From IMG/VR virus record IMGVR_UViG_3300036800_000057, positions 1 to 27,523 of that record: DNA of 27,523 nucleotides; one strand, written 5' to 3'. Below are positions 97 to 11,574 of this stretch, piece after piece (the stretch's first letter is position 1; each line of letters begins with the position of its first letter). The notes under the pieces were generated by a model, which saw only the letters and a program-made list of their open reading frames with translations, ran no database searches and was not told the origin of the DNA. The stretch comes from a virus. Both the position numbers and the translations under genes were made by a program.

Positions 97-288
97 CTAC
101 CGTCGGCACCGAAGTTCCCTCTCCAGCTCAGCGTTCCGCGCTTGATAGACCTCAAGCTGCCGGGTCAACGTGCCGATGCACTCCGTCATCGTTCGAAATT
201 GCGCCCAGACCCGCGTGGGGACGATGTAGAGCCGGTAGTCTATGCGCAAGGTCTTGCCGACGTCGGCGCAGCGCTGAACGTCAATCAT
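97..288 (-). CDS. small hypothetical protein, helical C-terminus
   Basis: This 63-aa protein is not recognised. Its C-terminal half (QLEVYQARNAELERELRCRR) has the charged heptad look of a short coiled coil. The ATG at 288-286 lies inside the 8-bp repeat that flanks the methyltransferase cassette. Before that insertion, this ATG probably overlapped the GcrA stop codon as TGATG. It is now preceded by the cassette end, which supplies CATG and a three-codon reading frame (M-V-R-stop) whose TGA overlaps this ATG as ATGA. It was therefore the gene downstream of GcrA in the ancestral operon and appears to remain expressible by reinitiation. It could also be a remnant, since it has no known domain. 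Confidence 0.5.
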   Translation of the reverse strand: MIDVQRCADVGKTLRIDYRLYIVPTRVWAQFRTMTECIGTLTRQLEVYQARNAELERELRCRR

Positions 289-293: not shown

Positions 294-321
294 CATGCCT
301 ATCCGGTTAGCGCCCATCAGG
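294..321 (-). repeat. downstream terminal repeat, methyltransferase cassette
   Basis: Read in cargo direction it is CCTGATGGGCGC followed by TAACCGGATAGGCATG. It matches 7420-7446 with one extra A. It contains the methyltransferase stop codon TAA, a GGATAGG purine run and a terminal ATG. Its outer 15 bp are the inverse of the upstream end. Confidence 0.8.
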
Positions 322-843
322 ACCACTTGTTGATTGGGGGAGCACGAACTTGCCCTGCCATGTTTTCCAGGCGCGACCGATCGCGCCAGACCCCGGAAAC
401 AGGTCTGCCAAGTCGTCGGTCGGACACGCTCCGACCATCTCGAAAGCCCAATGGCAGACGGCCTCCGGCTTCACTCCGGTCAGGCCGCGCTTGAGCGTGA
501 TGCTTTCCTGTATCCAGTCGCGCATCACGAGCCGCTTGCTGACGACCGGCTTGCGAGCGGCCTTCACAATGACAGGCTCCCAGGCGTAGGCGACGCTGAC
601 GTTCTTTTTGAACGCCGCAAAGCCCTTCACCCATGACATCCAGCGCGCTCCCGTGGGAGCGATTAGTGGGGCCAGCGTGGCGATGCTCGTTGGCGTCGCG
701 CTTGCGTGAAGAACCCACCCGTCGAACTCGCTTTCGAGGCGTTCGATAAGCGCGGCGTGATCGACTTCGCCGCCGAAGTCAGGGTGATCGGCGTAGAGGT
801 GCGCACACCCGATATACGGCGGATCGGCGTAAGCGATGCGCAT
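307..843 (-). CDS. small beta-class DNA methyltransferase
   Basis: The 178-aa protein has an amino-methyltransferase DPPY motif at residues 7-10 (YADPPYIG) and an AdoMet-binding FPGSG motif at 149-153 (DLFPGSGAIGRAW). Motif IV comes first and motif I last, which is the order of the beta class that includes CcrM. It would methylate N6-adenine or N4-cytosine in DNA. At 178 aa it is about half the size of CcrM and has only a short central region for target recognition, so specificity cannot be read. The stop TAA falls within the downstream cassette end. The ATG overlaps the stop of a mini-peptide encoded by the upstream end (TGATG). No restriction partner is adjacent, so self-protection or epigenetic control is more likely than restriction-modification. 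GcrA, which senses methylated promoters in host bacteria, is directly upstream. Confidence 0.85.
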   Translation of the reverse strand: MRIAYADPPYIGCAHLYADHPDFGGEVDHAALIERLESEFDGWVLHASATPTSIATLAPLIAPTGARWMSWVKGFAAFKKNVSVAYAWEPVIVKAARKPVVSKRLVMRDWIQESITLKRGLTGVKPEAVCHWAFEMVGACPTDDLADLFPGSGAIGRAWKTWQGKFVLPQSTSGPDGR

Positions 844-881
844 CAGGATTTAGTGGTCATGGGTGAAAACCGGATAGGCAT
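843..881 (-). CDS. cassette leader mini-ORF MPIRFSPMTTKS
   Basis: A 12-codon frame starts at the ATG inside the outer CATG of the cassette end and stops at TGA 845-843, which overlaps the methyltransferase ATG (TGATG). The first ten residues, MPIRFSPMTT, are identical in the leader of the other cassette at 6559-6606 because both come from the conserved terminal repeat. The GcrA stop lies a few bases upstream, so ribosomes could reinitiate here and then couple into the methyltransferase. Whether the peptide has a function of its own is unknown; coupling is the inferred role. Confidence 0.45.
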   Translation of the reverse strand: MPIRFSPMTTKS

Positions 882-882
882 G
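853..882 (-). repeat. upstream terminal repeat, methyltransferase cassette
   Basis: In cargo orientation it begins CATGCCTATCCGGTTTTCAC and ends CCATGACCAC. All 30 bp are identical to 6558-6587. It encodes MPIRFSPMTT. Confidence 0.85.
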
Positions 883-890
883 CATCAGAC
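883..890 (-). repeat. 8-bp flanking repeat, upstream copy
   Basis: GTCTGATG in cargo orientation; contains the GcrA TGA stop. The partner copy at 286-293 is GTCCGATG, with one mismatch. Confidence 0.6.
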
Positions 891-1403
891 GTACCGGCGC
901 AGCGACCTTTCAAGGTCATGAGCGCTTCCCTTGCTGGGCGCGAACGCGAGCGCCGCGTGATCGGCGCAGTAGGAACCGACCCCGCCGATTTGCCGGCCGC
1001 AAAACCCAAAGGCCGCATCCTGGGGATCACCAACGGGCCATCTGCAACCGTGCCGGCCAATCGTCTCGATCGTGCATGTGGCGGATAGGGTTTCAGGACG
1101 GAGAACGACCGCCTCCGGGACGATTGGCGGCCCAGCTGCGGCCTTGGGCGCCGGCTTCGGCTTCGCGATGAACGAACCGTTGATGATCCTGGAGCGGAGC
1201 ACGGCCACGGTTTTATGGGCCACCGCGCGGCCTGGGTTGATGACGCCCAGGCGATGCAGCTTTCCGATCACCGCGTTCCGCGAGGGAGAACTGCCGTCAG
1301 GCTGGACAAGTGATCGCGCTATCTCGGAAGCGCTGGACCCGTTCTTGTACATCTCGGCGGCGTGTTCTGCGACGCCTTCCTTTTTCCAGTCGAAGTCCGT
1401 CAT
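885..1403 (-). CDS. gcrA: GcrA-like cell-cycle regulator
   Basis: This 172-aa protein belongs to the GcrA family of alphaproteobacterial transcription regulators. The N-terminal helix-turn-helix shows the family signature (SASEIARSL, then SRNAVIGKLHRLGV at about residues 20-50). The C-terminus has the typical Cys/His region (CRWPVGDP, FGFCG, SYCADHAALAF), which contacts sigma70 RNA polymerase in the known family. In Caulobacter GcrA activates cell-cycle genes at promoters methylated by CcrM. The linker is Pro/Ala-rich. ATG at 1403 fits the family start and has GGGGGGCG upstream. An alternative ATG at 1424 overlaps the RuvC stop as ATGA and adds seven residues. The gene is in a minus-strand operon with RuvC and, through an inserted cassette, a DNA methyltransferase. 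A role in redirecting host transcription is inference. Confidence 0.88.
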   Translation of the reverse strand: MTDFDWKKEGVAEHAAEMYKNGSSASEIARSLVQPDGSSPSRNAVIGKLHRLGVINPGRAVAHKTVAVLRSRIINGSFIAKPKPAPKAAAGPPIVPEAVVLRPETLSATCTIETIGRHGCRWPVGDPQDAAFGFCGRQIGGVGSYCADHAALAFAPSKGSAHDLERSLRRYV

Positions 1404-1420
1404 CTCGCCCCCCGTTGATG

Positions 1421-1939
1421 TCATCCGCGCAGCCGCAGCGGCGGCCGGAACTTCGCGGCCAGATCGGGCTGGAGCGTCTGGAGCGCGTGCAACCAGACGC
1501 CCGCCGCATCGGCCTCGTCGTGATGCTCGATCTTCAGACCGAGAGCGCGTGCCGCGTCCATCATCTCGGGCTTCAAGGCGTTCCCCCGACCGGTCAGTGC
1601 GCGCTTTGCCTGCTGCACCGTAACCTCTCGTAAAGGAACATGGGCCTGTCGGCAAGCGAGCCCGGTGATCGCGGCTAGGCCGTGCGTGATCCGGACAGAC
1701 TGGGTGCTCGTCTTGCGCGCCACGATGGGCGCTTCGATGACGATCAGGGTAGGCTTGTAGTCCCGGATCAGGTTGCCGATCCAGCCATAGTGATTCTCGA
1801 AGAGCGGTTCCAGGAGTGCCGGGCTCTCATCGTCGCCTGCATATGGGTTGAGGCGTGAATTGACGGCGGGGAGACGCTCTCCGCCCCCCGCCGCCCAGCC
1901 TGTGCGGCTTCCGTGGTCGAGCGCGAGCAGACGGATCAG
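1421..1939 (-). CDS. ruvC: RuvC-like Holliday junction resolvase, CTG start
   Basis: Starting from CTG at 1939 the product is 172 aa. It has the four RuvC acidic residues at nearly textbook spacing: D8 (LLALDHGSRTG), E69 (LIVIEAP), and D141 and D144 (HHDEADAAG). It also has the basic TGRGNALK region before the last pair. The enzyme would resolve four-way junctions during phage recombination or packaging. The first in-frame GTG, at 1723, would remove D8 and E69, so translation must begin further upstream. There is no ATG, GTG or TTG between the upstream stop codon of this frame and D8. CTG at 1939-1937 overlaps the preceding gene's TGA as CTGA, mimicking the ATGA coupling used elsewhere in the genome. 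The start codon is the unusual part; the family call is firm. Confidence 0.82.
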   Translation of the reverse strand: MIRLLALDHGSRTGWAAGGGERLPAVNSRLNPYAGDDESPALLEPLFENHYGWIGNLIRDYKPTLIVIEAPIVARKTSTQSVRITHGLAAITGLACRQAHVPLREVTVQQAKRALTGRGNALKPEMMDAARALGLKIEHHDEADAAGVWLHALQTLQPDLAAKFRPPLRLRG

Positions 1940-2451
1940 GTCTTGACGACCTCAAGTTTGGCCGGGGCGTTCTTGACCATGCCCCGGTGCCAGCCCCTGG
2001 TCCAAGCCTGGACGCGGTCGCCGGGACAGTCTTCCGGCGCCTCGCACGGAACGCCCAGGCCGCTGGTCGCCGCGAGATAGCCCTTCGACTCCCAGTCGTC
2101 CTCGCTCATCTCGTCCGGATCGATGTCGGCGAACAGGTCCAACTGGTCGGCCAGTTGTTTGTGGCCCGGCAGCTCCGTCCAGACGGCGTACTGATGCTCG
2201 GTCTCGAAGTGCTCACGGACCTCCGCCGGCTCCCAGGTGGACATGGTGATCATGGCGTCCATCGCCTTCAGCACCACGCCGGCGCCCCGCGCTCGCTTGC
2301 GGATCGCCTTGCGCGACGCGTTGGCGATGTCGCAGGCTTCGTTGGCGATGATGATCTGGCGCTTCCAGTCGGTGAAGGCTTCCTTCGTCAGCCCGCTCCC
2401 TTCCTCGGTCATCGGTGTGCGGGCGTCGTCTTTGCTCAGATTGGCGGCCAT
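1936..2451 (-). CDS. hypothetical phage protein, RMF-like C-terminus
   Basis: This 171-aa protein is the first gene of the minus-strand operon. Its N-terminal third is helical and basic (RKAIRKRARGAGVVLKAMD), the centre is very acidic (DLFADIDPDEMSEDDWESKG), and the C-terminus has a VQAWTRGWHRG segment resembling the repeated Gly/aromatic pattern of ribosome modulation factor. That resemblance is short and does not establish function. AGGGAGA upstream of the ATG at 2451 is a good ribosome binding site. The stop overlaps the RuvC CTG start by four bases. No enzyme motif was recognised. Confidence 0.75.
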   Translation of the reverse strand: MAANLSKDDARTPMTEEGSGLTKEAFTDWKRQIIIANEACDIANASRKAIRKRARGAGVVLKAMDAMITMSTWEPAEVREHFETEHQYAVWTELPGHKQLADQLDLFADIDPDEMSEDDWESKGYLAATSGLGVPCEAPEDCPGDRVQAWTRGWHRGMVKNAPAKLEVVKT

Positions 2452-2580
2452 CTCGGTCTCCCTGTTGTGACTGCACGAACTTAAGCTGGTTCACCCGTCG
2501 CTAACAAATAGTTTTCGGGAGCGACTTGACAGGACTCGCACGGTAATGTTCCTTGCGGCTAAGCCGTCAACGAGGACCGG
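2452..2580. promoter_or_regulatory. divergent promoter and operator region
   Basis: The only sizeable gap between the two early operons, which leave it in opposite directions. On the plus strand TTGACA (2526-2531) is followed after 12 bases by TAATGT (2544-2549), which fits the short end of the Caulobacter-type TTGACGS-N10-14-GCTANAWC promoter. On the minus strand TTGACGG (2570-2564) is a -35 candidate overlapping an 11-bp palindrome, CGGCTAAGCCG (2556-2566). A near copy of that palindrome recurs at 9823-9832. No convincing -10 was found for the minus direction. The regulator is unknown. Confidence 0.4.
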
Positions 2581-2754
2581 ATGACCGAGACGAAGAAGCC
2601 GCGCGGGTTCGCCGCCCTGAGCCCAGAGCGCCGGCTGGAGATCGCCCGCAAGGGTGGCTCGGCCCAGCACACGACGCGCGGATTCTCCGATCCCGAAGTA
2701 GCGAGCCGGGCCGGAAAGCTCGGCGCTGCGGCCAAGAACAAGGGGAAGGGCTGA
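2581..2754 (+). CDS. small KGG-motif (Con-10-like) protein
   Basis: This 57-aa protein has the KGG stress-protein pattern: RKGGSAQHTTRGFSDPEVAS followed by AGKLGAAA, that is GGxA, GF, DP and then a second Gly/Ala-rich half. It resembles the small hydrophilic KGG/Con-10 repeat proteins, which are often found in stress-responsive loci and in phages; their molecular role is poorly known. It is the first gene of the plus-strand operon. Its stop overlaps the next start as TGATG (2752-2756). Its ribosome binding site is weak (AACGAGGACCGG), so the leader may be important. Confidence 0.7.
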   Translation: MTETKKPRGFAALSPERRLEIARKGGSAQHTTRGFSDPEVASRAGKLGAAAKNKGKG

Positions 2755-3065
2755 TGGCCGAAGCGAAGCACACGCCCGGCCCCTGGCTGTTTGAGCCGCA
2801 CAACGGATACGGCGCCAAGGACCCGGACGGCGAGCCGTGGCCCTTCGGCTATATCAGCACGGCTCATCCATCGCCGATCTTCGAACTCTCGACGCCGCTT
2901 GTGTTTCCGCACGAGGAATTGGTCGCGAACGCCCGGCTGATCGCCGCCGCGCCCGATCTGCTAGCCGCCTGTCAGGCCGTCTTGGGCGAGTGGCGCGACG
3001 GATACGGGCTTGATTGCATCGAGCAACTTCGCGCCGCCATCGCCAAGGCGGAGGGACGTGCATGA
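2754..3065 (+). CDS. conserved phage protein, HTPGPW family
   Basis: This 103-aa protein has the hallmark N-terminal KHTPGPW motif and the central ANARLIAAAPDLLAACQAV motif of a family very common in phages of Gram-negative bacteria. The function of the family is not known. The start ATG shares one base with the stop of the preceding gene, and the stop overlaps the next ATG as ATGA, so translation is coupled on both sides. The length is normal for the family. Confidence 0.8.
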   Translation: MAEAKHTPGPWLFEPHNGYGAKDPDGEPWPFGYISTAHPSPIFELSTPLVFPHEELVANARLIAAAPDLLAACQAVLGEWRDGYGLDCIEQLRAAIAKAEGRA

Positions 3066-3349
3066 CCGGAGCAGAGGCGCTCGAAGCCGGCCTTCTGGTG
3101 GAAGCCCTAGCGGCGCTGCCAGAACTGACCGCCGAAGTCCGCGCCGAGACCTACGGGCCTTTCGAGGACGAAGCCGTGCCGTGGAAGCAACTCTGCCTCG
3201 AAGTCTGGGCACGCCAGCACGAGGACGACAACGGCCAAGAGCGCATCGGTCCCACGCTGGCGTTGCCGCCGACCATGATGGCAAAGCTGTTGTCGGTCGT
3301 CGCCTCGATGATCGCCGCGCGCCTCACCGAACTTGGAGTGACGCCTTGA
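3062..3349 (+). CDS. hypothetical phage protein
   Basis: This 95-aa acidic protein is of unknown function. The sequence is helical, with a Leu-rich N-terminus (EALEAGLLVEALAALPEL) and a hydrophobic C-terminal helix (LLSVVASMIAARLTELG) that is too amphipathic to call a membrane span. It overlaps both neighbours by four bases (ATGA at the start, TTGA at the end) and so is translated as part of the early operon. No motif was recognised. Confidence 0.65.
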   Translation: MTGAEALEAGLLVEALAALPELTAEVRAETYGPFEDEAVPWKQLCLEVWARQHEDDNGQERIGPTLALPPTMMAKLLSVVASMIAARLTELGVTP

Positions 3350-3609
3350 CCGTCGCCACCTTCCGCAAACCCGGATCGGAGCCATCGAGCGTGGAGGATC
3401 GCCGCGCCCTCCTTGAAGCCGAACTGCGCTCGCTCGCGGCCGATCACAGCGAGGAGTTCTACCGCGCCATCGAGACCGTTATCCGACTCAGCGCCGAGGT
3501 CGCGGAAGGCGGCGAAAGCTACATCGTTGGCGTCCGAGAGATCGCGCGCCAGCTACAGGGCGGTCTGAAGCCCTATGCACTGAACGTGCGGTCCTTGCTG
3601 GATCGCTGA
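3346..3609 (+). CDS. hypothetical phage protein, TTG start
   Basis: An 87-aa product is obtained from TTG at 3346, which overlaps the preceding TGA as TTGA. The protein begins MTVATFRKPGSEPSSVEDRR and is helical and charged throughout, with no recognised domain. No better start lies between the preceding gene and the conserved-looking body, so the TTG is preferred. The gene is followed by a short gap and the Rad50-like ATPase gene, which suggests but does not prove a role in recombination. Confidence 0.65.
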   Translation: MTVATFRKPGSEPSSVEDRRALLEAELRSLAADHSEEFYRAIETVIRLSAEVAEGGESYIVGVREIARQLQGGLKPYALNVRSLLDR

Positions 3610-3633
3610 ATTTCGAGGGATCGGGAGAGCCCA

Positions 3634-4923
3634 ATGCGTATTGTGAACTTGCAGGCCGAAAATATAAAGCGGATTTCGGTCGTAAACATCACTCCGAAAG
3701 GCGACATCGTAGAGATCGCCGGGAAAAATTCACAGGGCAAGTCCAGCATTCTCGACAGCCTGTACTATGCACTCGCCGGCACGTCCGAAATCCCTTCTCA
3801 GCCGATCCGGCGCGGCGAAGACGGCGCGATCATCAAGCTTGATCTGGGCGACATCAAGATCACGCGCCGGTTCTCCAAGAAGGAGGGTGGGTACACGACC
3901 ACCGTCGTTGTCGAGAACGCGGACGGGGCGCGCTACCCCAGCCCGCAGACAATGCTCGACGCGCTGGTGGGCTCACTTTCTTTCGACCCCCTGACCTTCA
4001 GCCGTCAAGACGCGCCGAAGCAGTTCGAGACCTTGAAGAAGCTGACCGGCCTGGACTTCTCCGAGATGGAGCAAGCGAACAAGGCCGACTACGACGCGCG
4101 CACCGCTGTCAACCGCACGGCCAAAGACCTCCGCGCGGCGGCCGAGTCGATCATCATCCCGGACGATGCGCCGACTGAGCCGGTTGACGAATCGGCGCTT
4201 GTTGAGCAGCTCGCCGAAGCCGGGCGCCACAACGCCGCACTGGAGCAGCGAAAGGCCACACGAGAGGCGTTCGCCGCCGAGACGGTCAAGCACCGGGAGC
4301 GCGTGACCGAGATCAACACTCAGATCGCCCAACTCCAAGAGCAGGCGGCGCGCCTCCAGGAACACGTCAAGGAGATCGAGAGCGAGATCGCGGCGCGTGA
4401 CCGGAAGGTCGCCGAGGCCGCAGTGCTACCGGCGCCCGTCGATCCGTCCGCGATCACGGCTCAGATCACGGCGGCGCGGCAGACCAACCAGATTGTGGAG
4501 ATGAGCGCCCGCAAGGCCGCTTTCGCCGCCAAGGCCGAGGAAGCCGAGAAGCAATCCGCCAAACTCACCAAGGCGATGGCCGACCGCGAAGCCGAGAAGC
4601 TGAAGCTGATCGCTGAGGCCAAGATGCCCATCGAGGGGATCGGCTTCGGCGATGGCATCGTCACCCTCGACGGCCTGCCGTTCGATCAGGCGTCCAGCGC
4701 CGAACAGCTCCGCGCGTCCATCGCCATCGCCGCCGCCGGCAATCCCAAGCTCCGGGTGATCCGGACCAAGGATGGCGCCCTACTCGACGCCGACAGCATG
4801 AAGCTGCTCGAAGGGTTCGCCGAAAAGCACGACATGCAAATCTGGTGCGAGGTCTTGGCGACAGATCGTCCCGGCGCGGTGGTGATCGAGGACGGCCACG
4901 TGAAGGAGCCAGCCGATGCTTAG
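3634..4923 (+). CDS. Rad50/SbcC-like AAA ATPase
   Basis: This 429-aa protein has an SMC-type split ATPase. Walker A (GKNSQGKSS) is near residues 31-39. A long Glu/Ala/Gln-rich coiled coil covers about 190-320. A C-terminal signature-like segment (SSAEQLRASIAIA) is followed by LLDADSMKLLEGF in the Walker B/D-loop position. Phage proteins of this class pair with a nuclease in DNA end processing or replication-coupled recombination. The partner here is probably the PDDEXK exonuclease two genes downstream. The coiled coil is much shorter than in cellular Rad50 or SbcC, as in other phage versions. GGGAG precedes the ATG. The stop overlaps the next gene by eight bases. Confidence 0.85.
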   Translation: MRIVNLQAENIKRISVVNITPKGDIVEIAGKNSQGKSSILDSLYYALAGTSEIPSQPIRRGEDGAIIKLDLGDIKITRRFSKKEGGYTTTVVVENADGARYPSPQTMLDALVGSLSFDPLTFSRQDAPKQFETLKKLTGLDFSEMEQANKADYDARTAVNRTAKDLRAAAESIIIPDDAPTEPVDESALVEQLAEAGRHNAALEQRKATREAFAAETVKHRERVTEINTQIAQLQEQAARLQEHVKEIESEIAARDRKVAEAAVLPAPVDPSAITAQITAARQTNQIVEMSARKAAFAAKAEEAEKQSAKLTKAMADREAEKLKLIAEAKMPIEGIGFGDGIVTLDGLPFDQASSAEQLRASIAIAAAGNPKLRVIRTKDGALLDADSMKLLEGFAEKHDMQIWCEVLATDRPGAVVIEDGHVKEPADA

Positions 4924-5584
4924 ACCGCCCTACATCGCCGCCGATATGCCGGCGGGAGTCGCGCGCCTGCAAGTCACCAGCAAGGGCTATCCGATCCCGT
5001 GGTTTGTGGACCGAGCGGCTCCGCTGAAGGACGGTGAAGCCGACTTCCGCATCATGGACGGCAAGCGGCTGAAGCTTGCGATACGCGAAAAGCGATGCTG
5101 GATTTGCGGCCAACCGATCCGACACGGGACGCCCGTCTTCGTCGCCGGTCCCATGTGCGGCGTCAACCGCACCAGCGCCGAGCCGCCGAATCACGCCTCA
5201 TGCGCCGAATGGGCCGTGAAGGCGTGCCCCTTCCTCGCCGTGCCGAAGCGCATCCGTGATGAGCGCGGCCTGCCGGCAAACGCAACGCAGGCCGGCCTCG
5301 GGATCAAGCGCAACCCAGGTGTTGCGATGCTGTGGGCGAGCAAGACCTACAAGACATGGAAGCCGCCCGGCGGGGGCGTCCTGTTCGACATCGGCGAACC
5401 AGACCCTTACGGGGTCGAATGGTTCTGCGAAGGCCGCGAAGCCACGCGGGCGGAGGTCATGCACTCCGTCGAGACTGGCCTGCCGCTGTTGCTACAGCAG
5501 GCCGCCCAGGACACAGCGCCGGCAATGGCGTGTTTCGAACTCGGCCGGGCGGTCGAGCGCTTCATGGGCTTCGTGCCGGCATGA
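4916..5584 (+). CDS. zinc-ribbon-like conserved phage protein
   Basis: This 222-aa protein belongs to a conserved phage family of unknown function. It has a CWICGQPI knuckle followed by GPMCGVNR, then AEPPNHASCAEWAVKACPF. This gives a cluster of Cys/His residues that could bind one or two zinc ions. It lies between the Rad50-like ATPase and the exonuclease, overlapping the former by eight bases and followed by a 12-codon mini-cistron. A DNA-binding accessory role in the recombination module is plausible but unproven. Confidence 0.75.
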   Translation: MLRPPYIAADMPAGVARLQVTSKGYPIPWFVDRAAPLKDGEADFRIMDGKRLKLAIREKRCWICGQPIRHGTPVFVAGPMCGVNRTSAEPPNHASCAEWAVKACPFLAVPKRIRDERGLPANATQAGLGIKRNPGVAMLWASKTYKTWKPPGGGVLFDIGEPDPYGVEWFCEGREATRAEVMHSVETGLPLLLQQAAQDTAPAMACFELGRAVERFMGFVPA

Positions 5585-5619
5585 GCGCGTGGTCCCAAGA
5601 TGCGGAGATCGTGTTTTGA
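5581..5619 (+). CDS. 12-aa mini-cistron linking two genes
   Basis: ATG at 5581 overlaps the upstream stop (ATGA) and encodes MSAWSQDAEIVF. Its TGA (5617-5619) overlaps the TTG start of the exonuclease (TTGA). The peptide is probably a translational relay that delivers ribosomes to the weak TTG start. It may also be the eroded remnant of a larger gene. Confidence 0.35.
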   Translation: MSAWSQDAEIVF

Positions 5620-6554
5620 CGGCTCCCTTCCTCACCGAAATATGGCAGGGCGTCGTCAGCGGACCCGGCCTCTATCTCGGCGTCCCGGCGGCCCGCTACC
5701 ATCTTGACCCGTGCCCTGAACCCAGTCTCTCCGCCTCCGTCGCCAAGATCGCCTTCAACCGCTCGCTGAAGCACGCCAAGGCCGCGCATCCCCGCCTCCG
5801 CGACCCGGACTTTCCCGAGGATGACGACACCGAAGAGCGGTCGAGGCCGTGGTACATGGAGGTGGGCAGCGCCTGCCACACGCTAGTGCTCGGGCGCGGC
5901 GAGGAACCGGTCGAGATCAAGGTCCCAAACTTCCGCAAGAAGGATGCCCAGGAGCAGCGCGACCTCGCCCGCGCTCAGGGGAAAATCCCCCTGATCACCA
6001 AGCACTACGACATCGCGCACCGGATGGCCGCCGTCGCCCGCCCGGTGGTGGAAAACCTGCTTGGGGCTGAGTTTCTCGCCGAGTCGATGGTCTGCTCGGA
6101 AGAGAAGGGTATGTGGCGCCGGTCTCTGCTGGACGCCGCAAGCTTCGATCTGCGGAACATCTGCGATCTGAAGACCACGAGCTTGGAGATGTCGCCGCAA
6201 CAGGCCGCCCGCACCGTCAACCGCGCGAACAACGCTTTTCAGGCCGCGTATTACATACGGAACGCCGACAACATCGACCCTAGCGGCATGGGCCGTCGCC
6301 GCTTCCTGTTCGCCTATATCGAGACGGAATATCCCTACGAGATGTCAGTCGTCTATCCGGACGAAGCGCTGATGACCAAGGCGGACGCCGAGGTCAATGC
6401 CGCCTGCATCATCTGGGATCGCGCCATGCGAACCGGCGTCTGGCCCGGCTACTCACGCGAGCCATTCCCTATCGCTCCGGAGAACTGGATGATGCGCCAG
6501 TTCGAGGACAGAATGCTGATGGACGACACCCTGAAGGAGGACGAGCATGGCTGA
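5616..6554 (+). CDS. PDDEXK phage exonuclease (RecE/DUF3799-like)
   Basis: Starting from TTG at 5616 the product is 312 aa and begins MTAPFLTEIWQGVVSGPGLY. Catalytic-core features are ACHTLVLG (helix A region), RRSLLDAAS (acidic residue) and NICDLKTTS (D-x-K pair), then QAAYYIRNAD (QxxxY motif). This order is typical of PDDEXK exonucleases of the YqaJ/RecE type, which resect double-stranded DNA for annealing. The gene acts with the Rad50-like ATPase and probably the RecA-fold NTPase at 7683. The TTG overlaps the mini-cistron stop. The stop TGA (6552-6554) overlapped the start of the next gene before a cassette was inserted there. Confidence 0.85.
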   Translation: MTAPFLTEIWQGVVSGPGLYLGVPAARYHLDPCPEPSLSASVAKIAFNRSLKHAKAAHPRLRDPDFPEDDDTEERSRPWYMEVGSACHTLVLGRGEEPVEIKVPNFRKKDAQEQRDLARAQGKIPLITKHYDIAHRMAAVARPVVENLLGAEFLAESMVCSEEKGMWRRSLLDAASFDLRNICDLKTTSLEMSPQQAARTVNRANNAFQAAYYIRNADNIDPSGMGRRRFLFAYIETEYPYEMSVVYPDEALMTKADAEVNAACIIWDRAMRTGVWPGYSREPFPIAPENWMMRQFEDRMLMDDTLKEDEHG

Positions 6555-6606
6555 GACCATGCCTATCCGGTTTTCACCCATGACCACCAGATTTAGGAGC
6601 GCGTGA
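6547..6606 (+). CDS. fused leader ORF driving the inserted cargo gene
   Basis: The interrupted gene's original ribosome binding site (AAGGAGG, 6534-6540) and ATG (6547) are intact. They now read through the 8-bp repeat into the cassette end as MAETMPIRFSPMTTRFRSA, stopping at TGA 6604-6606, which overlaps the PP-loop gene ATG as TGATG. Residues 5-14 equal the leader of the methyltransferase cassette. The insertion thus places cargo translation under the target gene's own start signals. The coupling role is inferred; a peptide function is unknown. Confidence 0.45.
   Translation: MAETMPIRFSPMTTRFRSA
6550..6557 (+). repeat. 8-bp target duplication, upstream copy
   Basis: GCTGAGAC, identical to 7447-7454. 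It contains the exonuclease stop codon TGA, so the upstream gene is left intact. Confidence 0.75.
6558..6587 (+). repeat. upstream terminal repeat, PP-loop cassette
   Basis: 30 bp identical to 853-882 read on the other strand; starts CATGCCTATCCGGTT and ends CCATGACCAC. It encodes MPIRFSPMTT in the leader frame. Confidence 0.85.
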
Positions 6607-7400
6607 TGCGGACGTATGTTTGCTTCAACAGCGGCGGCAACGACAGCATCGCAACGCTTGAGTTTATGGTGCTGAACGAACTGCCGAAGAAGGCCCGCGT
6701 GGTCAGTCTGTACAACAACACGGGCTGGGCTGCGGTCTATTGGGCTGACCGAATGGCCCAAGTGTCGGCGTGGTGCGCGGATCGCGGGATTGAGCACGTC
6801 GAACTGGCCACCAAAGGATTTGAGCGCCTTGTGCTGGACGGCGACGCCGGGACGATCCGCTTCCCGAACGGTATGCGGAAGACCTGCACCGAGCGCCTGA
6901 AAATCCTCCCGGCCAAGCGCTGGCTGGATAAGCGCGATCCTGAGGGAGAGGCCATCTGTGTCCTTGGCGTGCGCCGGTCGGAAAGCCAGCGCCGGGCGCA
7001 GACGCCCATCTACGAGCCGATTTCCATCAACCACGGTGGCCGGGCGCTCTGGAAGCCCCTGGCCGAGTACTCGGATGAGCAGCGCGATCAGTTGCTGGTC
7101 AGCGCTGGGTTCGAGGTGCTGCCTCACAGGTCGGACGAATGCGAGGTTTGCATTCACGCCAATCGCGCCGATCTGCGGCGGGTGAGCGATGAGGGCATTG
7201 CCCGCGTCCGTGCGCTGGAAGACGCCACCGGCAAGGTGATGTTTCGCCCCAAGGCGTACGCCGGGGCCACGGGTATCGATGAGGTCATGCGGTGGGCGCA
7301 CAGCGAGCGCGGCGCGTTTAGGCCCGCCATTCCCCTCGCTGAAGCGGTCGAAGGGGAGCCCAAGATTGAGGGGTGCGAAGATGACTTCTGCGGCCTCTAG
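6606..7400 (+). CDS. PAPS-reductase-like PP-loop ATPase
   Basis: This 264-aa protein has a PP-loop SGGNDS at residues 9-14, the ATP-pyrophosphatase motif of the PAPS reductase/DndC-like superfamily. It has a central GVRRSESQRRA segment typical of phage members and a Cys-rich C-terminal half (CEVCIHANRADL, CEDDFCGL). Such enzymes adenylate or reduce sulfur or nucleotide substrates; phage versions are widespread and mostly uncharacterised, with nucleic-acid modification a common proposal. ATG at 6606 has AGGAG in the cassette leader and overlaps the leader stop; a GTG one codon earlier is the alternative start. It is the only cargo of the 889-bp inverted-repeat cassette, as the methyltransferase is of the other. 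Confidence 0.82.
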   Translation: MRTYVCFNSGGNDSIATLEFMVLNELPKKARVVSLYNNTGWAAVYWADRMAQVSAWCADRGIEHVELATKGFERLVLDGDAGTIRFPNGMRKTCTERLKILPAKRWLDKRDPEGEAICVLGVRRSESQRRAQTPIYEPISINHGGRALWKPLAEYSDEQRDQLLVSAGFEVLPHRSDECEVCIHANRADLRRVSDEGIARVRALEDATGKVMFRPKAYAGATGIDEVMRWAHSERGAFRPAIPLAEAVEGEPKIEGCEDDFCGL

Positions 7401-7419
7401 CCAAACACCACATCTCGCC

Positions 7420-7446
7420 CCTGTGGGCGCTAACCGGATAGGCATG
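7420..7446 (+). repeat. downstream terminal repeat, PP-loop cassette
   Basis: CCTGTGGGCGC followed by TAACCGGATAGGCATG. It matches 294-321 with one missing base, and its last 15 bp are the inverse of the upstream end. Its final ATG is the present start codon of the downstream 80-aa gene. Confidence 0.82.
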
Positions 7447-7686
7447 GCTGAGACGTTCAACGTGGTCCAATTCTTCCCGGACGGAACGCACGAAGCCATC
7501 CGCGAGCGCGTCGGCGCCCAGGAGGCCGTCGAGACCGCCCGGGACTACACGCTGGCCACGCGGCCGGGCGTGATCCTCGGCGCCATCCAGCGCGTGATCA
7601 TCACCGACTCGGACGATTTCACCGTGTTCGAGTGGAAGCACGGCGAGGGCGTCACCTTCCCACCAGAATCGGCAGGCCGACAATGA
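7444..7686 (+). CDS. hypothetical phage protein, target of cassette insertion
   Basis: This 80-aa protein begins MAETFNVVQFFPDG and has beta-rich character (VVQFFPDG, RVIITDSDDFTVFEW). It is not recognised as a characterised family. The cassette at 6558-7446 entered directly after its start codon. The first four codons are duplicated upstream at 6547-6558, and the present ATG comes from the cassette end. The original AAGGAGG site now lies 900 bp upstream, so initiation must rely on GGATAGG in the cassette terminus. The stop overlaps the next start as ATGA. Confidence 0.72.
   Translation: MAETFNVVQFFPDGTHEAIRERVGAQEAVETARDYTLATRPGVILGAIQRVIITDSDDFTVFEWKHGEGVTFPPESAGRQ
7447..7454 (+). repeat. 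8-bp target duplication, downstream copy
   Basis: GCTGAGAC, encoding codons 2-4 of the downstream gene (A-E-T). Identity with 6550-6557 extends to 13 bp (GCATGGCTGAGAC) because the cassette end also terminates in GCATG. Confidence 0.75.
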
Positions 7687-8786
7687 GTAGAGATTGGACC
7701 GCCTTCCCGGCCGTGCGCGAGCAACTACCGCTGCTCATCGGCTTATCGGGCGCTCCGGGTTCGGGCAAAACCTACAGCGCCTTGACGCTCGCCCAAGGCA
7801 TCAAGAGCCATCGCGGCGGCTCGATCATCCTGCTGGATACGGACGGCGACCGTGCCCGCGCCTATGCGCCTCGCAAGGGCGAGGTCGCCAATGGCGTAAC
7901 CAGCTTCGATTTCGAACACCTCAGCTTCGCGCCGCCTTACGGGCCGGACGACTTCCTCGCGGCGATCCAGGCCCAGCTACCGCGCAACCCGGCCTGCATA
8001 ATCGTGGACGCCCTGAGCGCAGAACACGAAGGCGAGGGCGGCGTACTCTGGCTTCATGACACGGAGCTGGACCGGATGGCCGGCGACGATTGGAAGAAGC
8101 GGGATGTCATGACAACCACCGCCTGGATCAAGCCTAAAGCAGCAAGGCGGCGACTGATCAATTTTCTCATGAAAATGAAGGTGCCGATAATCGCAACCTT
8201 CCAGGCGAGGGAGAAAACGAAGCTTATCCAGAATGACAGGGGCAAGATGGCGCCGACGAACATTGGCTGGACTCCCATCGCCCCGAGCGAGATCATCCAG
8301 TCGATGACGCTGTTCTGCCTTCTGCCGATCCGGAGCGACGGAGTTCCCATGTGGAAAGGGAACACCGCGCACGAGGACTTCACGATCAAGCTCCCGGTCC
8401 AATTCAAGCATCTGTTCCCGGACAGTCAGCCGCTCAACCAATCGATGGGCGCCGCCATGTCGCGCTGGGCGGCCGGTGACGACGCCAAGGCCGCCCCCGC
8501 CTCACCACCGCCGCCCCCTCCGCCGCCTGCCGCCGCGTCTAATACGCAACCCACCTCCGAATCGACCGGCTCATGGGATTACGCTGCGTGGCAGAAGGCC
8601 TCCACGGAAGTCCTCGCCGGCATCACGACGGTTGCCGATCTGGACGCTTGGCGGGGCGATGAGTCGAACAAGGAGTGCTTCGGCAAGCTGACGGCTGCTG
8701 ATCCAGCGCTCGCCAAGTCGCTGAGCGCCGCGATCCAGGGTCGAAGGAAGGCGCTACTCGACAAGGAAACGGAGCCGCAGTTTTGA
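7683..8786 (+). CDS. RecA-fold phage NTPase (AAA_24-like, possible Sak4-type)
   Basis: This 367-aa protein has Walker A GAPGSGKTYS near residues 22-31, a Walker B-like CIIVDALSAEH and a sensor-like VPIIATFQAREKTK. This RecA-like core resembles phage AAA_24 and Sak4-type recombination ATPases that load on or anneal single-stranded DNA. After a poly-proline linker (PASPPPPPPPPAAAS) a C-terminal domain of about 85 residues follows (SWDYAAWQKAST to the end), possibly a protein-interaction module. It sits in the same operon as the exonuclease and Rad50-like ATPase. The start overlaps the upstream stop (ATGA) and the stop overlaps the next gene (TTGA). Confidence 0.78.
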   Translation: MSRDWTAFPAVREQLPLLIGLSGAPGSGKTYSALTLAQGIKSHRGGSIILLDTDGDRARAYAPRKGEVANGVTSFDFEHLSFAPPYGPDDFLAAIQAQLPRNPACIIVDALSAEHEGEGGVLWLHDTELDRMAGDDWKKRDVMTTTAWIKPKAARRRLINFLMKMKVPIIATFQAREKTKLIQNDRGKMAPTNIGWTPIAPSEIIQSMTLFCLLPIRSDGVPMWKGNTAHEDFTIKLPVQFKHLFPDSQPLNQSMGAAMSRWAAGDDAKAAPASPPPPPPPPAAASNTQPTSESTGSWDYAAWQKASTEVLAGITTVADLDAWRGDESNKECFGKLTAADPALAKSLSAAIQGRRKALLDKETEPQF

Positions 8787-9229
8787 CCCTGATGCCGGCC
8801 ATATCGCTATGGCAGCCGTTCGCCAGCCTCTGGGTTGTCACCAGCCCGCGCCTGAAGTGGCATGAGACGCGACACTGGCGACCCCCAGCTCGCTACATCG
8901 GCCGGCGCATCTTGGTCCACGCCGCCAAGACTCGCGAGGGCCTCCGCGACATCGAGGACGGCGACGATCTGGCCATTCTATGCCGCTCGCGGTTCGGCGA
9001 TGGCTGGCGGACCACGCTGCCCTTTGGCGGGTTCATCGGCAGCATCACCCTCGCCGCCGCCGTTCCGTCCCCACCGGATGACGACACGCCGGGTCCCGCG
9101 CGCTCCAGCGCCGACTTCATCTGCGGCAATTGGGGACCCAACCGCTATGGATGGCTTGGCGAGGAACCGGACGCGTGGCCGTGCAAGCCGGCGCGAGGCC
9201 AGCAGGGCTTCTGGATGGCAGAGCCGTGA
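8783..9229 (+). CDS. ASCH-domain-like protein
   Basis: This 148-aa protein begins with PAISLWQPFASLWV, then HETRHW, RILVHAAK, and GGFIGSITLAAAV. This matches the ASCH pattern of an N-terminal SLWQPWA motif, an ETR/W strand and an HAAK strand. ASCH is a PUA-like RNA- or nucleotide-binding fold that is common in phages. TTG at 8783 overlaps the upstream stop (TTGA); an internal ATG at 8792 is a plausible alternative and gives the usual family N-terminus. The stop overlaps the GTG of the HNH gene (GTGA). Confidence 0.72.
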   Translation: MTLMPAISLWQPFASLWVVTSPRLKWHETRHWRPPARYIGRRILVHAAKTREGLRDIEDGDDLAILCRSRFGDGWRTTLPFGGFIGSITLAAAVPSPPDDDTPGPARSSADFICGNWGPNRYGWLGEEPDAWPCKPARGQQGFWMAEP

Positions 9230-9606
9230 GTCGGACACTTCCGGAGTGGGTGGGCAGGACCGACGACGCCAAAGTGCCCCCCAGGGTCCGCGTTCGCATC
9301 TTCCTTCGTGAGGACGGCCGCTGTCACCTATCGGGCCGGAAGATCACGCCCGGCGACGCCTGGGACCTCGACCACAAGACCGCGCTCATCAACGGCGGCG
9401 AGCACCGCGAAAGCAACCTGTTCCCGGCGCTACGCGACAAGCATCGGGAGAAAACCCGCGAGGACATAAAGACGAAGGCCAAGGTCGCACGCGTGAAAGC
9501 CAGGCACATCGGCGTAAAGACGGACGGACGGAAGCTCCAGAGCCGGGGATTCGACAAGCGGCTGCGGAAGCGAATGGACGGCACAGTGGAGCGGCGCGAT
9601 GCGTGA
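9226..9606 (+). CDS. HNH endonuclease
   Basis: Starting from GTG at 9226 the product is 126 aa. The HNH core is RCHLSGRKI, then DLDHKTALINGGEHRESNL, then ALRDKHREKT; the DH, N and final H residues are present. The usual zinc-binding Cys pairs are missing, because the core region has only one Cys. The C-terminus is strongly basic (KTKAKVARVKARHIG, RLRKRMDG), fitting DNA binding. The enzyme could be a nicking or packaging-related nuclease or a homing enzyme; it is not next to either cassette, so a link to them would be speculative. The GTGA overlap decides the start. Confidence 0.8.
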   Translation: MSRTLPEWVGRTDDAKVPPRVRVRIFLREDGRCHLSGRKITPGDAWDLDHKTALINGGEHRESNLFPALRDKHREKTREDIKTKAKVARVKARHIGVKTDGRKLQSRGFDKRLRKRMDGTVERRDA

Positions 9607-9799
9607 GAGCGGGCGATGGATGCCCTCAGACAAACGCCTGCTCCTGGAATCGATCCGGAGCGGCGAGACGACCGTCGAAGCGGTGATGGCCGAGCACAAC
9701 ATCTCGGCCGAAGAACTACTGAGCTGGGCGCGCCGCAACGCCGCCTTCGGGCAAGACGGGCTGCGCGAGACCCGCGTGCAGGAATACCGGCTGAAATAA
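9599..9799 (+). CDS. sciP: SciP-like (DUF1153) regulator
   Basis: This 66-aa protein carries the DUF1153/SciP helix-turn-helix pattern. RWMPSDKRLLLESIRSGE is followed by NISAEELLSWARR and ends with GLRETRVQEYR, matching the family's RW..RRK..VV.AVR.G, LS.EEFLSW and GLR.TR.Q.YR blocks. In Caulobacter, SciP blocks activation of CtrA-dependent promoters. The phage protein lacks the N-terminal extension of the cellular form and is essentially the DNA/CtrA-binding domain. It overlaps the HNH gene by eight bases and is followed by a 63-base gap. Together with the phage GcrA it suggests manipulation of the host cell-cycle circuit; that role is inference. Confidence 0.82.
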   Translation: MRESGRWMPSDKRLLLESIRSGETTVEAVMAEHNISAEELLSWARRNAAFGQDGLRETRVQEYRLK

Positions 9800-10692: not shown

Positions 10693-11120
10693 CCGAACCC
10701 AAGGACAACGAGGCGTGGAGAGCGGCTTACGAGGCTGGGTTTCCCAACCGGCTGCCGCCGGACCACGAGGACTATAATCCCGAGGTACAGCGCTATCACG
10801 AGCAAGGCTTCCGCGCCGGCTTCCTCGCCCGCACCGCCTCCCCGCCCGTCGCGGAGATAGGCGGGGGAGAGCTGCCACCATTCGTCCGCGCGCTGATTGG
10901 CCCGCTGAAAGAACGTGCTGCGGCTGAGGTCATCCGCGCTCGCGACGAGGCGCGCGCAAACGGCACGGCGTGGGTCAAGACCAAAATGATCGAGGCGGAC
11001 CCTGTGGCGGTTCAGTTCATCATCGACGAACTCGAAAAGCGCGCCGCCCTCATGCGGCGCATCATCCGCGCCAAGGCCGACCCCGCCTCCCCACAAGGAA
11101 CCCCGACCAATGTCTCTTGA
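10689..11120 (+). CDS. hypothetical phage protein
   Basis: This 143-aa protein contains two Tyr/Gly-rich helical patches (AWRAAYEAGFPN and RYHEQGFRAGFLAR) near the N-terminus that are reminiscent of RMF-like repeats. A charged helical C-terminal half follows (ERAAAEVIRARDEARANG, ELEKRAALMRRIIRAKAD). No enzyme motif was found. It overlaps the upstream gene by four bases and the Fic gene by eleven, so it is probably cotranslated with Fic; a partner role is possible but unsupported. Confidence 0.62.
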   Translation: MTEPKDNEAWRAAYEAGFPNRLPPDHEDYNPEVQRYHEQGFRAGFLARTASPPVAEIGGGELPPFVRALIGPLKERAAAEVIRARDEARANGTAWVKTKMIEADPVAVQFIIDELEKRAALMRRIIRAKADPASPQGTPTNVS

Positions 11121-11574
11121 AGCGACCGAGCTGCGCCACTTCGTCCGCGAAAGCAACCGGATCGAGGGCATCACGCGAGAGCCGACCAAGCACGAACTGG
11201 AGGCTCACATCACACTGCTGGCGCACGGCGCGCCTGACATCGGTGCGGTCAGGGCCTTCGTCTGGACAGTCGCCGGCAAGCCCCTGCGCGACCGGCCCGG
11301 CATGAATGTTCGGGTGGGGAACCATATCGCCCCGCCAGGCGGTCCCGAGATCGTGACGCGCCTTGGCCTGATCCTCCACGGCGCACATCGCGGCGATGAC
11401 CCCTACGATGTCCACCGAGACTACGAAACGCTGCATCCGTTTCTAGATGGAAACGGTCGATCAGGCCGCGCGATCTGGCTTTGGCAAATGCTGCATCAGC
11501 GGAACGCTCGGCATGTGCTGCAACTGGGATTCTTGCATTGCTGGTACTACCAGTCCCTTGCGGGGCGGGGATGA
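11110..11574 (+). CDS. Fic-family protein with N-terminal inhibitory motif
   Basis: This 154-aa protein has the Fic active-site motif HPFLDGNGRSGR at residues 109-120, which matches the HxFx(D/E)GNGRxxR consensus exactly. The catalytic His is H109. An S-N-R-I-E-G sequence at residues 15-20 matches the (S/T)xxxE(G/N) inhibitory helix motif, here N-terminal as in class II Fic proteins. Active Fic enzymes transfer AMP or other nucleotide moieties to target proteins. This is the last gene of the plus-strand operon, directly before a terminator. The target could be host translation or transcription machinery, or a defence protein; nothing in the sequence identifies it. Confidence 0.85.
   Translation: MSLEATELRHFVRESNRIEGITREPTKHELEAHITLLAHGAPDIGAVRAFVWTVAGKPLRDRPGMNVRVGNHIAPPGGPEIVTRLGLILHGAHRGDDPYDVHRDYETLHPFLDGNGRSGRAIWLWQMLHQRNARHVLQLGFLHCWYYQSLAGRG

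Follow-up and report, generated by a model that had tools for sequence, protein, structure and literature searches.

A divergent GcrA, a short DUF1153 protein and a methyltransferase gene between IS1595-type transposon ends in a phage sequence

The window analysed here is the whole of virus record IMGVR_UViG_3300036800_000057, a linear stretch of 27,523 bases that is probably a fragment of a tailed-phage genome. It encodes a homologue of the alphaproteobacterial cell-cycle regulator GcrA, a short protein with the DUF1153 domain of SciP, and a small DNA methyltransferase whose open reading frame (ORF) starts 41 bp past the gcrA stop. The first-pass annotation had read the three genes as one set. 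Both domain assignments are borne out, as are the position of the methyltransferase directly after gcrA and the placement of gcrA (minus strand, leftward) and the DUF1153 gene (plus strand) in different gene runs. The leftward direction of gcrA and the inverted repeats around the methyltransferase were not mentioned in that annotation. We consider it likely that the GcrA homologue is genuine, that the DUF1153 protein is not a CtrA-blocking SciP, and that the methyltransferase is independent cargo of a non-autonomous IS1595-type element, here called E1. The features of these genes and of E1 are as follows.

97 to 288, minus strand: 63-aa ORF; its ATG and the stop of gcrA overlap (TGATG) once E1 and one duplication copy are removed (from the joined flanks)
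286 to 293, no strand: E1 target-site duplication, distal copy CATCGGAC (7/8)
294 to 882, minus strand: E1, transposase-less cassette of 589 bp with methyltransferase cargo (from the 15-bp perfect inverted ends and the flanks)
294 to 308, plus strand: E1 terminal inverted repeat CATGCCTATCCGGTT, distal end
307 to 843, minus strand: E1 cargo, small beta-order N6-adenine-type DNA methyltransferase, 178 aa (viral homologues; M1.HpyAVI fold match)
868 to 882, minus strand: E1 terminal inverted repeat CATGCCTATCCGGTT, gcrA-proximal end
883 to 890, no strand: E1 target-site duplication, gcrA-side copy CATCAGAC, which includes the gcrA stop codon
885 to 1403, minus strand: gcrA homologue, 172 aa (PF07750; matches to PDB 7ye1, 5yix and 5yiu; 26/32 near-invariant host positions)
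9599 to 9799, plus strand: DUF1153 helix-turn-helix core, 66 aa (PF06627; alignment and column counts; fold match 2jrt)

A second element, E2, lies among the rightward genes and carries a different gene.

6550 to 6557, no strand: E2 target-site duplication, left copy GCTGAGAC (8/8)
6558 to 7446, plus strand: E2, transposase-less cassette of 889 bp with phosphoadenosine phosphosulfate (PAPS) reductase cargo, bounded by the same 15-bp inverted ends CATGCCTATCCGGTT
6606 to 7400, plus strand: E2 cargo, PAPS-reductase-like gene, a phage auxiliary gene (PF01507, E 5.8e-6; phrog_424, E 2.4e-24)
7444 to 7686, plus strand: 80-aa ORF 3' of E2, whose ATG now comes from the cassette end (GGCATG)
7447 to 7454, no strand: E2 target-site duplication, right copy GCTGAGAC (8/8), within the start of the next gene

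The inverted ends of E1 and E2, CATGCCTATCCGGTT, are perfect over all 15 bp (15/15), and no IS1595 transposase is encoded in E1, in E2 or elsewhere in the window. The flanks of E1, read on the minus strand as GTCTGATG and GTCCGATG, match at 7/8 positions. When the flanks are joined by removing the element together with one copy of the duplication, the junction at E1 reads TGATG, in which gcrA ends with TGA and the following gene begins with the overlapping ATG, and the junction at E2 reads AAGGAGG-N6-ATGGCTGA, with the upstream stop overlapping the downstream start at ATGGCTGA. Removal of the elements thus restores compact phage gene junctions at both sites. The left end of E2 is also 40/42 identical to an end of a transposase-bearing IS1595-family element (L050). 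We further note that the E2 cargo weakly matches DndC, a protein of DNA phosphorothioation (E 8.5e-10), so that a role in sulfur modification of DNA or tRNA is possible.

Relatives of these elements were sought by searching public collections of bacterial genomes and viral contigs for the CATGCCTATCCGGTT ends and counting those elements with a target duplication of at least 7/8. In bacterial genomes these ends delimit short miniature inverted-repeat transposable elements (MITEs) as well as transposase-bearing elements about 1.05-1.19 kb in length. In viral contigs they bound elements with an IS1595-family transposase (PF12762, E 9e-35; PF12760) as well as transposase-less cassettes. The viral contigs, window included, hold 12 cargo cassettes (two here and ten elsewhere), 5 transposase-bearing elements and 0 MITEs, and the bacterial genomes hold 2 cargo-type, 5 transposase-bearing and 21 MITE-type elements; the difference in cargo against MITEs between the two collections (Fisher p 1e-7) is indicative, as the bacterial and viral pattern searches differed in stringency. 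The ten further viral cassettes mostly carry a single gene, and viral cargo includes an RNA ligase, two other DNA methyltransferases, a MazG-like protein and a nucleoside deoxyribosyltransferase. Phage genes are carried by transposase-less IS1595-type cassettes, flanked by 8-bp target duplications, in L051, L053, L055, L057, L058, L061, L065 and L068; L051 and L057 carry two cassettes each, as does the window. At half of the insertions, the longest open frame that spans the site ranks within the shortest 6% for random sites, and many insertions therefore avoid gene breakage. A query with the terminal inverted repeats gave no match in named phages (blastn). A separate element at 5635-6114 of L039 has both ends closely resembling those of E2, with different small ORFs inside and no matching target duplication; it is possibly a cargo-swapped or recombined cassette.

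The cargo of E1, METHYLTRANSFERASE, shows the catalytic DPPY followed by D-L-F-P-G-S-G (an FPGSG motif), in beta order. Its best fold match is M1.HpyAVI (5hfj, E 5.5e-4), from a model with a predicted local distance difference test score (pLDDT) of 76; no Pfam or PDB match was obtained by sequence or profile. Judged from these features, the enzyme is not CcrM. Homologues with 63-87% identity occur in 49 viral contigs, and gcrA scores over the cut-off in 2 of 50 records (these 49 contigs and one other). Xanthomonas phage PBR31, whose host is a gammaproteobacterium, carries a homologue with 79% identity. Because the homologues mostly occur without gcrA, and one of them in a Xanthomonas phage, the function of this methyltransferase should need no GcrA, CcrM or CtrA. 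Inverted repeats of the E1/E2 type surround none of the copies at the 49 loci, nor the one relative of the PAPS-reductase gene, and a general spread of the methyltransferase gene by way of this cassette was rejected on account of the 49 homologue loci.

The DUF1153 assignment of the 66-aa protein is far beyond chance (PF06627, E 8.1e-12, 45.5 bits against a cut-off of 23.5) and covers profile positions 26-87 only; no strong rival family emerges (HTH_28, 0.0012; HTH_Tnp_1, 0.033). Its ATG overlaps the stop of an upstream HNH-like ORF (ATGCGTGA). Host DUF1153 proteins share a segment, VIGPDG-PLT-DLPPP-TK, ahead of the helix-turn-helix, and this segment is absent both from the phage ORF and from its frame upstream. 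The identification as SciP proposed at first did not withstand the comparison of residues: the protein consists of the DUF1153 core and retains 16/36 near-invariant host positions, and the start of helix 1 has changed from RRKA to SDKR, with the invariant Arg replaced by Asp and the A by R. In Caulobacter, sciP(T24I) and sciP(T65A) behave as loss of function (PMC4241560, PMC7591256). T24 and T65 were both placed with the same offset of +3 by counting along a host homologue, and by this offset T24 probably falls in the segment that the phage protein lacks.

A true SciP mimic, one whose binding to CtrA or SciP sites has survived the loss of the N-terminus, would account for the retention of the C-terminal GLR-TR-Q-YR signature and of both Trp residues, for the recurrence of short forms (as in Erythrobacter phage XM05) and for the best match of the predicted fold to the DUF1153 structure 2jrt (weak, E 0.12, TMq 0.71; mean pLDDT 74, from three sequences). 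We nevertheless think it unlikely, given the replacement of RRKA by SDKR and the probable position of T24, the site of a loss-of-function allele (PMC7591256), in the missing segment, as placed by alignment offset. The phage protein most likely binds DNA and may be a small early-expressed DNA-binding protein with the SciP helix-turn-helix and no N-terminal arm. The loss of this arm makes a neofunctionalised or competing regulator more likely than a CtrA-blocking SciP, and the 66-aa protein should not be named SciP. Among other phage sequences, DUF1153 proteins turned up in two viral contigs and in a single named phage, Erythrobacter phage XM05, whose copy is likewise short. As an observation in its own right, a 57-kb viral contig (L034, L037, L038) has two DUF1153 domains, one of which forms an N-terminal fusion with a long ORF of 453 aa.

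The GcrA homologue matches PF07750 far beyond chance (E 4.2e-27, 95.9 bits against a cut-off of 26.9) from residue 5 to 160, across both domains, and aligns with both domains of Caulobacter GcrA (PDB 7ye1, 5yiu, 5yix). Its layout, with a DNA-binding domain at about residues 1-55, a linker and a sigma2-interaction domain at about 105-172, resembles that of the Caulobacter protein, in which the DNA-binding domain spans residues 1-45 and the sigma2-binding domain 108-173 (PMC7403470). Against 31 host proteins it retains 26/32 near-invariant positions, and the contact-bearing domains are conserved, as the first-pass annotation would lead one to expect. All near-invariant residues of the recognition helix RNAVIGKxHRLG are present, as are those of C-W-P...F-C-G...Y-C..H and all Cys/His residues of the sigma-binding domain, including the equivalents of Cys118, Cys133, Cys143 and His146. 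An insertion also precedes the recognition helix, and the GcrA tree did not identify the host: the window GcrA is not resolved there and sits on the longest branch, which argues that it is not a recent capture from a host. A viral-contig GcrA at 671-1195 of L002, by comparison, groups with Caulobacter GcrA at full support and appears to be a recent host capture.

The long branch and the insertion adjoining the recognition helix might instead mark a diverged relic that now does something else, such as acting as an inhibitor that only binds sigma. This is quite improbable, since no near-invariant RNAVIGKxHRLG residue and no Cys or His of the sigma-binding domain has been lost. These conserved residues suggest that the phage GcrA probably works as a sigma70 cofactor.

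The host is probably an alphaproteobacterium with DNA methylated at GANTC. GANTC sites are strongly depleted in the window, with 48 observed against 132 +/- 11 expected (observed/expected 0.48). For 28 other gcrA-bearing viral contigs the median ratio is 0.36, compared with 0.56-0.65 for two other viral sets (p 2e-4). This depletion fits an alphaproteobacterial host that contains CcrM, and is no proof of one. No exact CtrA box (TTAA-N7-TTAA) was found in the window, neither CtrA boxes nor enriched SciP motifs occur there above chance, and sigma70 promoters in the early region do not exceed those in shuffled sequence. In the divergent gap at 2452-2580, TTGACA at 2526 is followed by GACTC, a GANTC site, at 2533-2537. 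This is a candidate methylation- or GcrA-sensitive early promoter (2526-2560), with a poor -10 box and no call from the promoter scan.

If GcrA, SciP and the methyltransferase formed a cell-cycle take-over set, as the earlier reading had it, they would push the host towards S-phase-like expression and away from CtrA programmes. The two regulatory domains are genuine, GANTC is depleted here as in other gcrA-bearing phage contigs, and the GcrA of phage phiCbK has been proposed to act in such a take-over (PMC3556154). We regard such a set as very improbable. The methyltransferase is cassette cargo distinct from CcrM, and many phages that lack gcrA encode such an enzyme, a Xanthomonas phage among them. 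The DUF1153 protein lacks the N-terminal segment and the invariant Arg. DUF1153 is absent from 29/29 other gcrA-bearing viral contigs and gcrA from 3/3 other DUF1153-bearing phage records, so that the two co-occur in no other record tested; the combination is rare in the sample examined and gives no sign of a conserved pair. In Caulobacter, moreover, SciP and GcrA act in different cell-cycle phases. With the gene beside gcrA carried by a jumping cassette, the three genes are not one cell-cycle toolkit.

That the inverted repeats are instead regulatory sequences (phage promoters or operators, terminators) or recombination linkers has next to no probability and was rejected: the repeats do lie in intergenic gaps adjoining gene starts, and phages do use repeated early promoters, but each pair is inverted and bounds exactly one gene with 7/8 or 8/8 direct repeats outside, and the same ends enclose IS1595 transposase genes, or delimit MITEs, in many genomes.

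We return to the preferred explanation, a genuine GcrA, a DUF1153 protein other than SciP and an independently mobile methyltransferase gene. E1, with two terminal inverted repeats, one gene and no transposase, would have landed exactly between gcrA and the next gene, and its sister element E2 would have brought the PAPS-reductase gene into the phage. An IS1595 transposase acting in trans, from the host or from another phage, may have moved these repeat-gene-repeat units into the phage. The simplest route by which a gene could come to lie between such ends would be the decay of a passenger-carrying IS1595 element, because several viral elements hold a transposase together with a further ORF. 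Some points weigh against this explanation. One mismatch remains in the target duplication of E1, and a natural empty site was not found in any relative. The phage GcrA is strongly diverged (branch length 2.57, best identity to any tree relative 39%), and with its insertion this divergence means that its promoter choice may differ. A captured methyltransferase could also have been kept for helping GcrA.

More broadly, we lean towards the view that phages share a family of single-gene cassettes dependent on IS1595 transposase, which combine ordinary phage genes with 15-bp transposon ends, lack a transposase and do little damage where they insert, at gene junctions whose downstream gene can even take a new ATG from the cassette end. 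If so, phages would have a dedicated gene-shuffling route for auxiliary genes, one that here put a methyltransferase beside gcrA, and part of phage mosaicism may stem from the action in trans of a bacterial transposase. The methyltransferase offers a concrete example of how single genes may enter phage genomes, in transposase-less cassettes bounded by transposon ends and found in many unrelated viral contigs. Since it is cassette-borne, adjacency in a phage operon need not mean a functional link. The idea of a phage-directed cell cycle is narrowed to one well-supported protein, GcrA, and a putative DUF1153 partner, and the IS1595-type phage cassettes are the more interesting result.

Elsewhere in the window, the rightward genes encode an AAA ATPase similar to those of Caulobacter and Erythrobacter phages, along with exonuclease VIII-like and HNH-like proteins; tail and lysis genes then follow. 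Searches of viral contigs with the baseplate hub and exonuclease VIII returned no close relatives of the phage, and the ORF downstream of E2 had no match in named phages. The ORF at 11110-11574 has a Fic-like HPFxxGNGRxxR motif (HPFLDGNGRSGR), matches the SoFic and PDC-S04 defence models weakly and appears truncated.

Several of these components have known counterparts. Phage-borne GcrA is already known: it is encoded by 5/6 phiCbK-like phages (Gill et al. 2012, PMC3556154) and discussed in PMC9437464, and we find it in 29 named-phage records and 29 viral contigs. The protein described here shares with Caulobacter crescentus GcrA and the phiCbK gp222 group the two-domain layout, the helix RNAVIGKxHRLG and the Cys/His-rich sigma2-binding domain, but it is at most 39% identical to any relative in the tree, has the insertion before the recognition helix and lies in a genome that is not phiCbK-like. 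The short phage DUF1153 protein is a new, diverged member of its domain, like alphaproteobacterial SciP in its helix-turn-helix core and C-terminal GLR-TR-Q-YR signature and unlike it in lacking VIGPDG-PLT-DLPPP-TK, in the change of RRKA to SDKR and in keeping only 16/36 near-invariant positions. With CcrM and the small beta-class adenine methyltransferases the E1 cargo shares the catalytic DPPY, an FPGSG-type S-adenosylmethionine motif and beta order, its fold being nearest to M1.HpyAVI; unlike CcrM, it has 178 aa, no recognisable target-recognition or C-terminal CcrM domain, and a distribution not confined to alphaproteobacterial phages. Bacteria are known to harbour IS1595 elements with passenger genes, MITEs and mobile insertion cassettes (MICs); the one paper library searched yielded no account of IS1595-type single-gene cassettes in phages, which is not proof that there is none. 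E1 and E2 resemble IS1595-family insertion sequences and their MITEs in their 15-bp ends, 8-bp target duplications and subterminal sequence, and MICs in their repeat-gene-repeat layout without a transposase. They differ from all three bacterial kinds in their location in phage genomes and in carrying ordinary phage genes as cargo, in contrast to the empty MITEs of bacteria.

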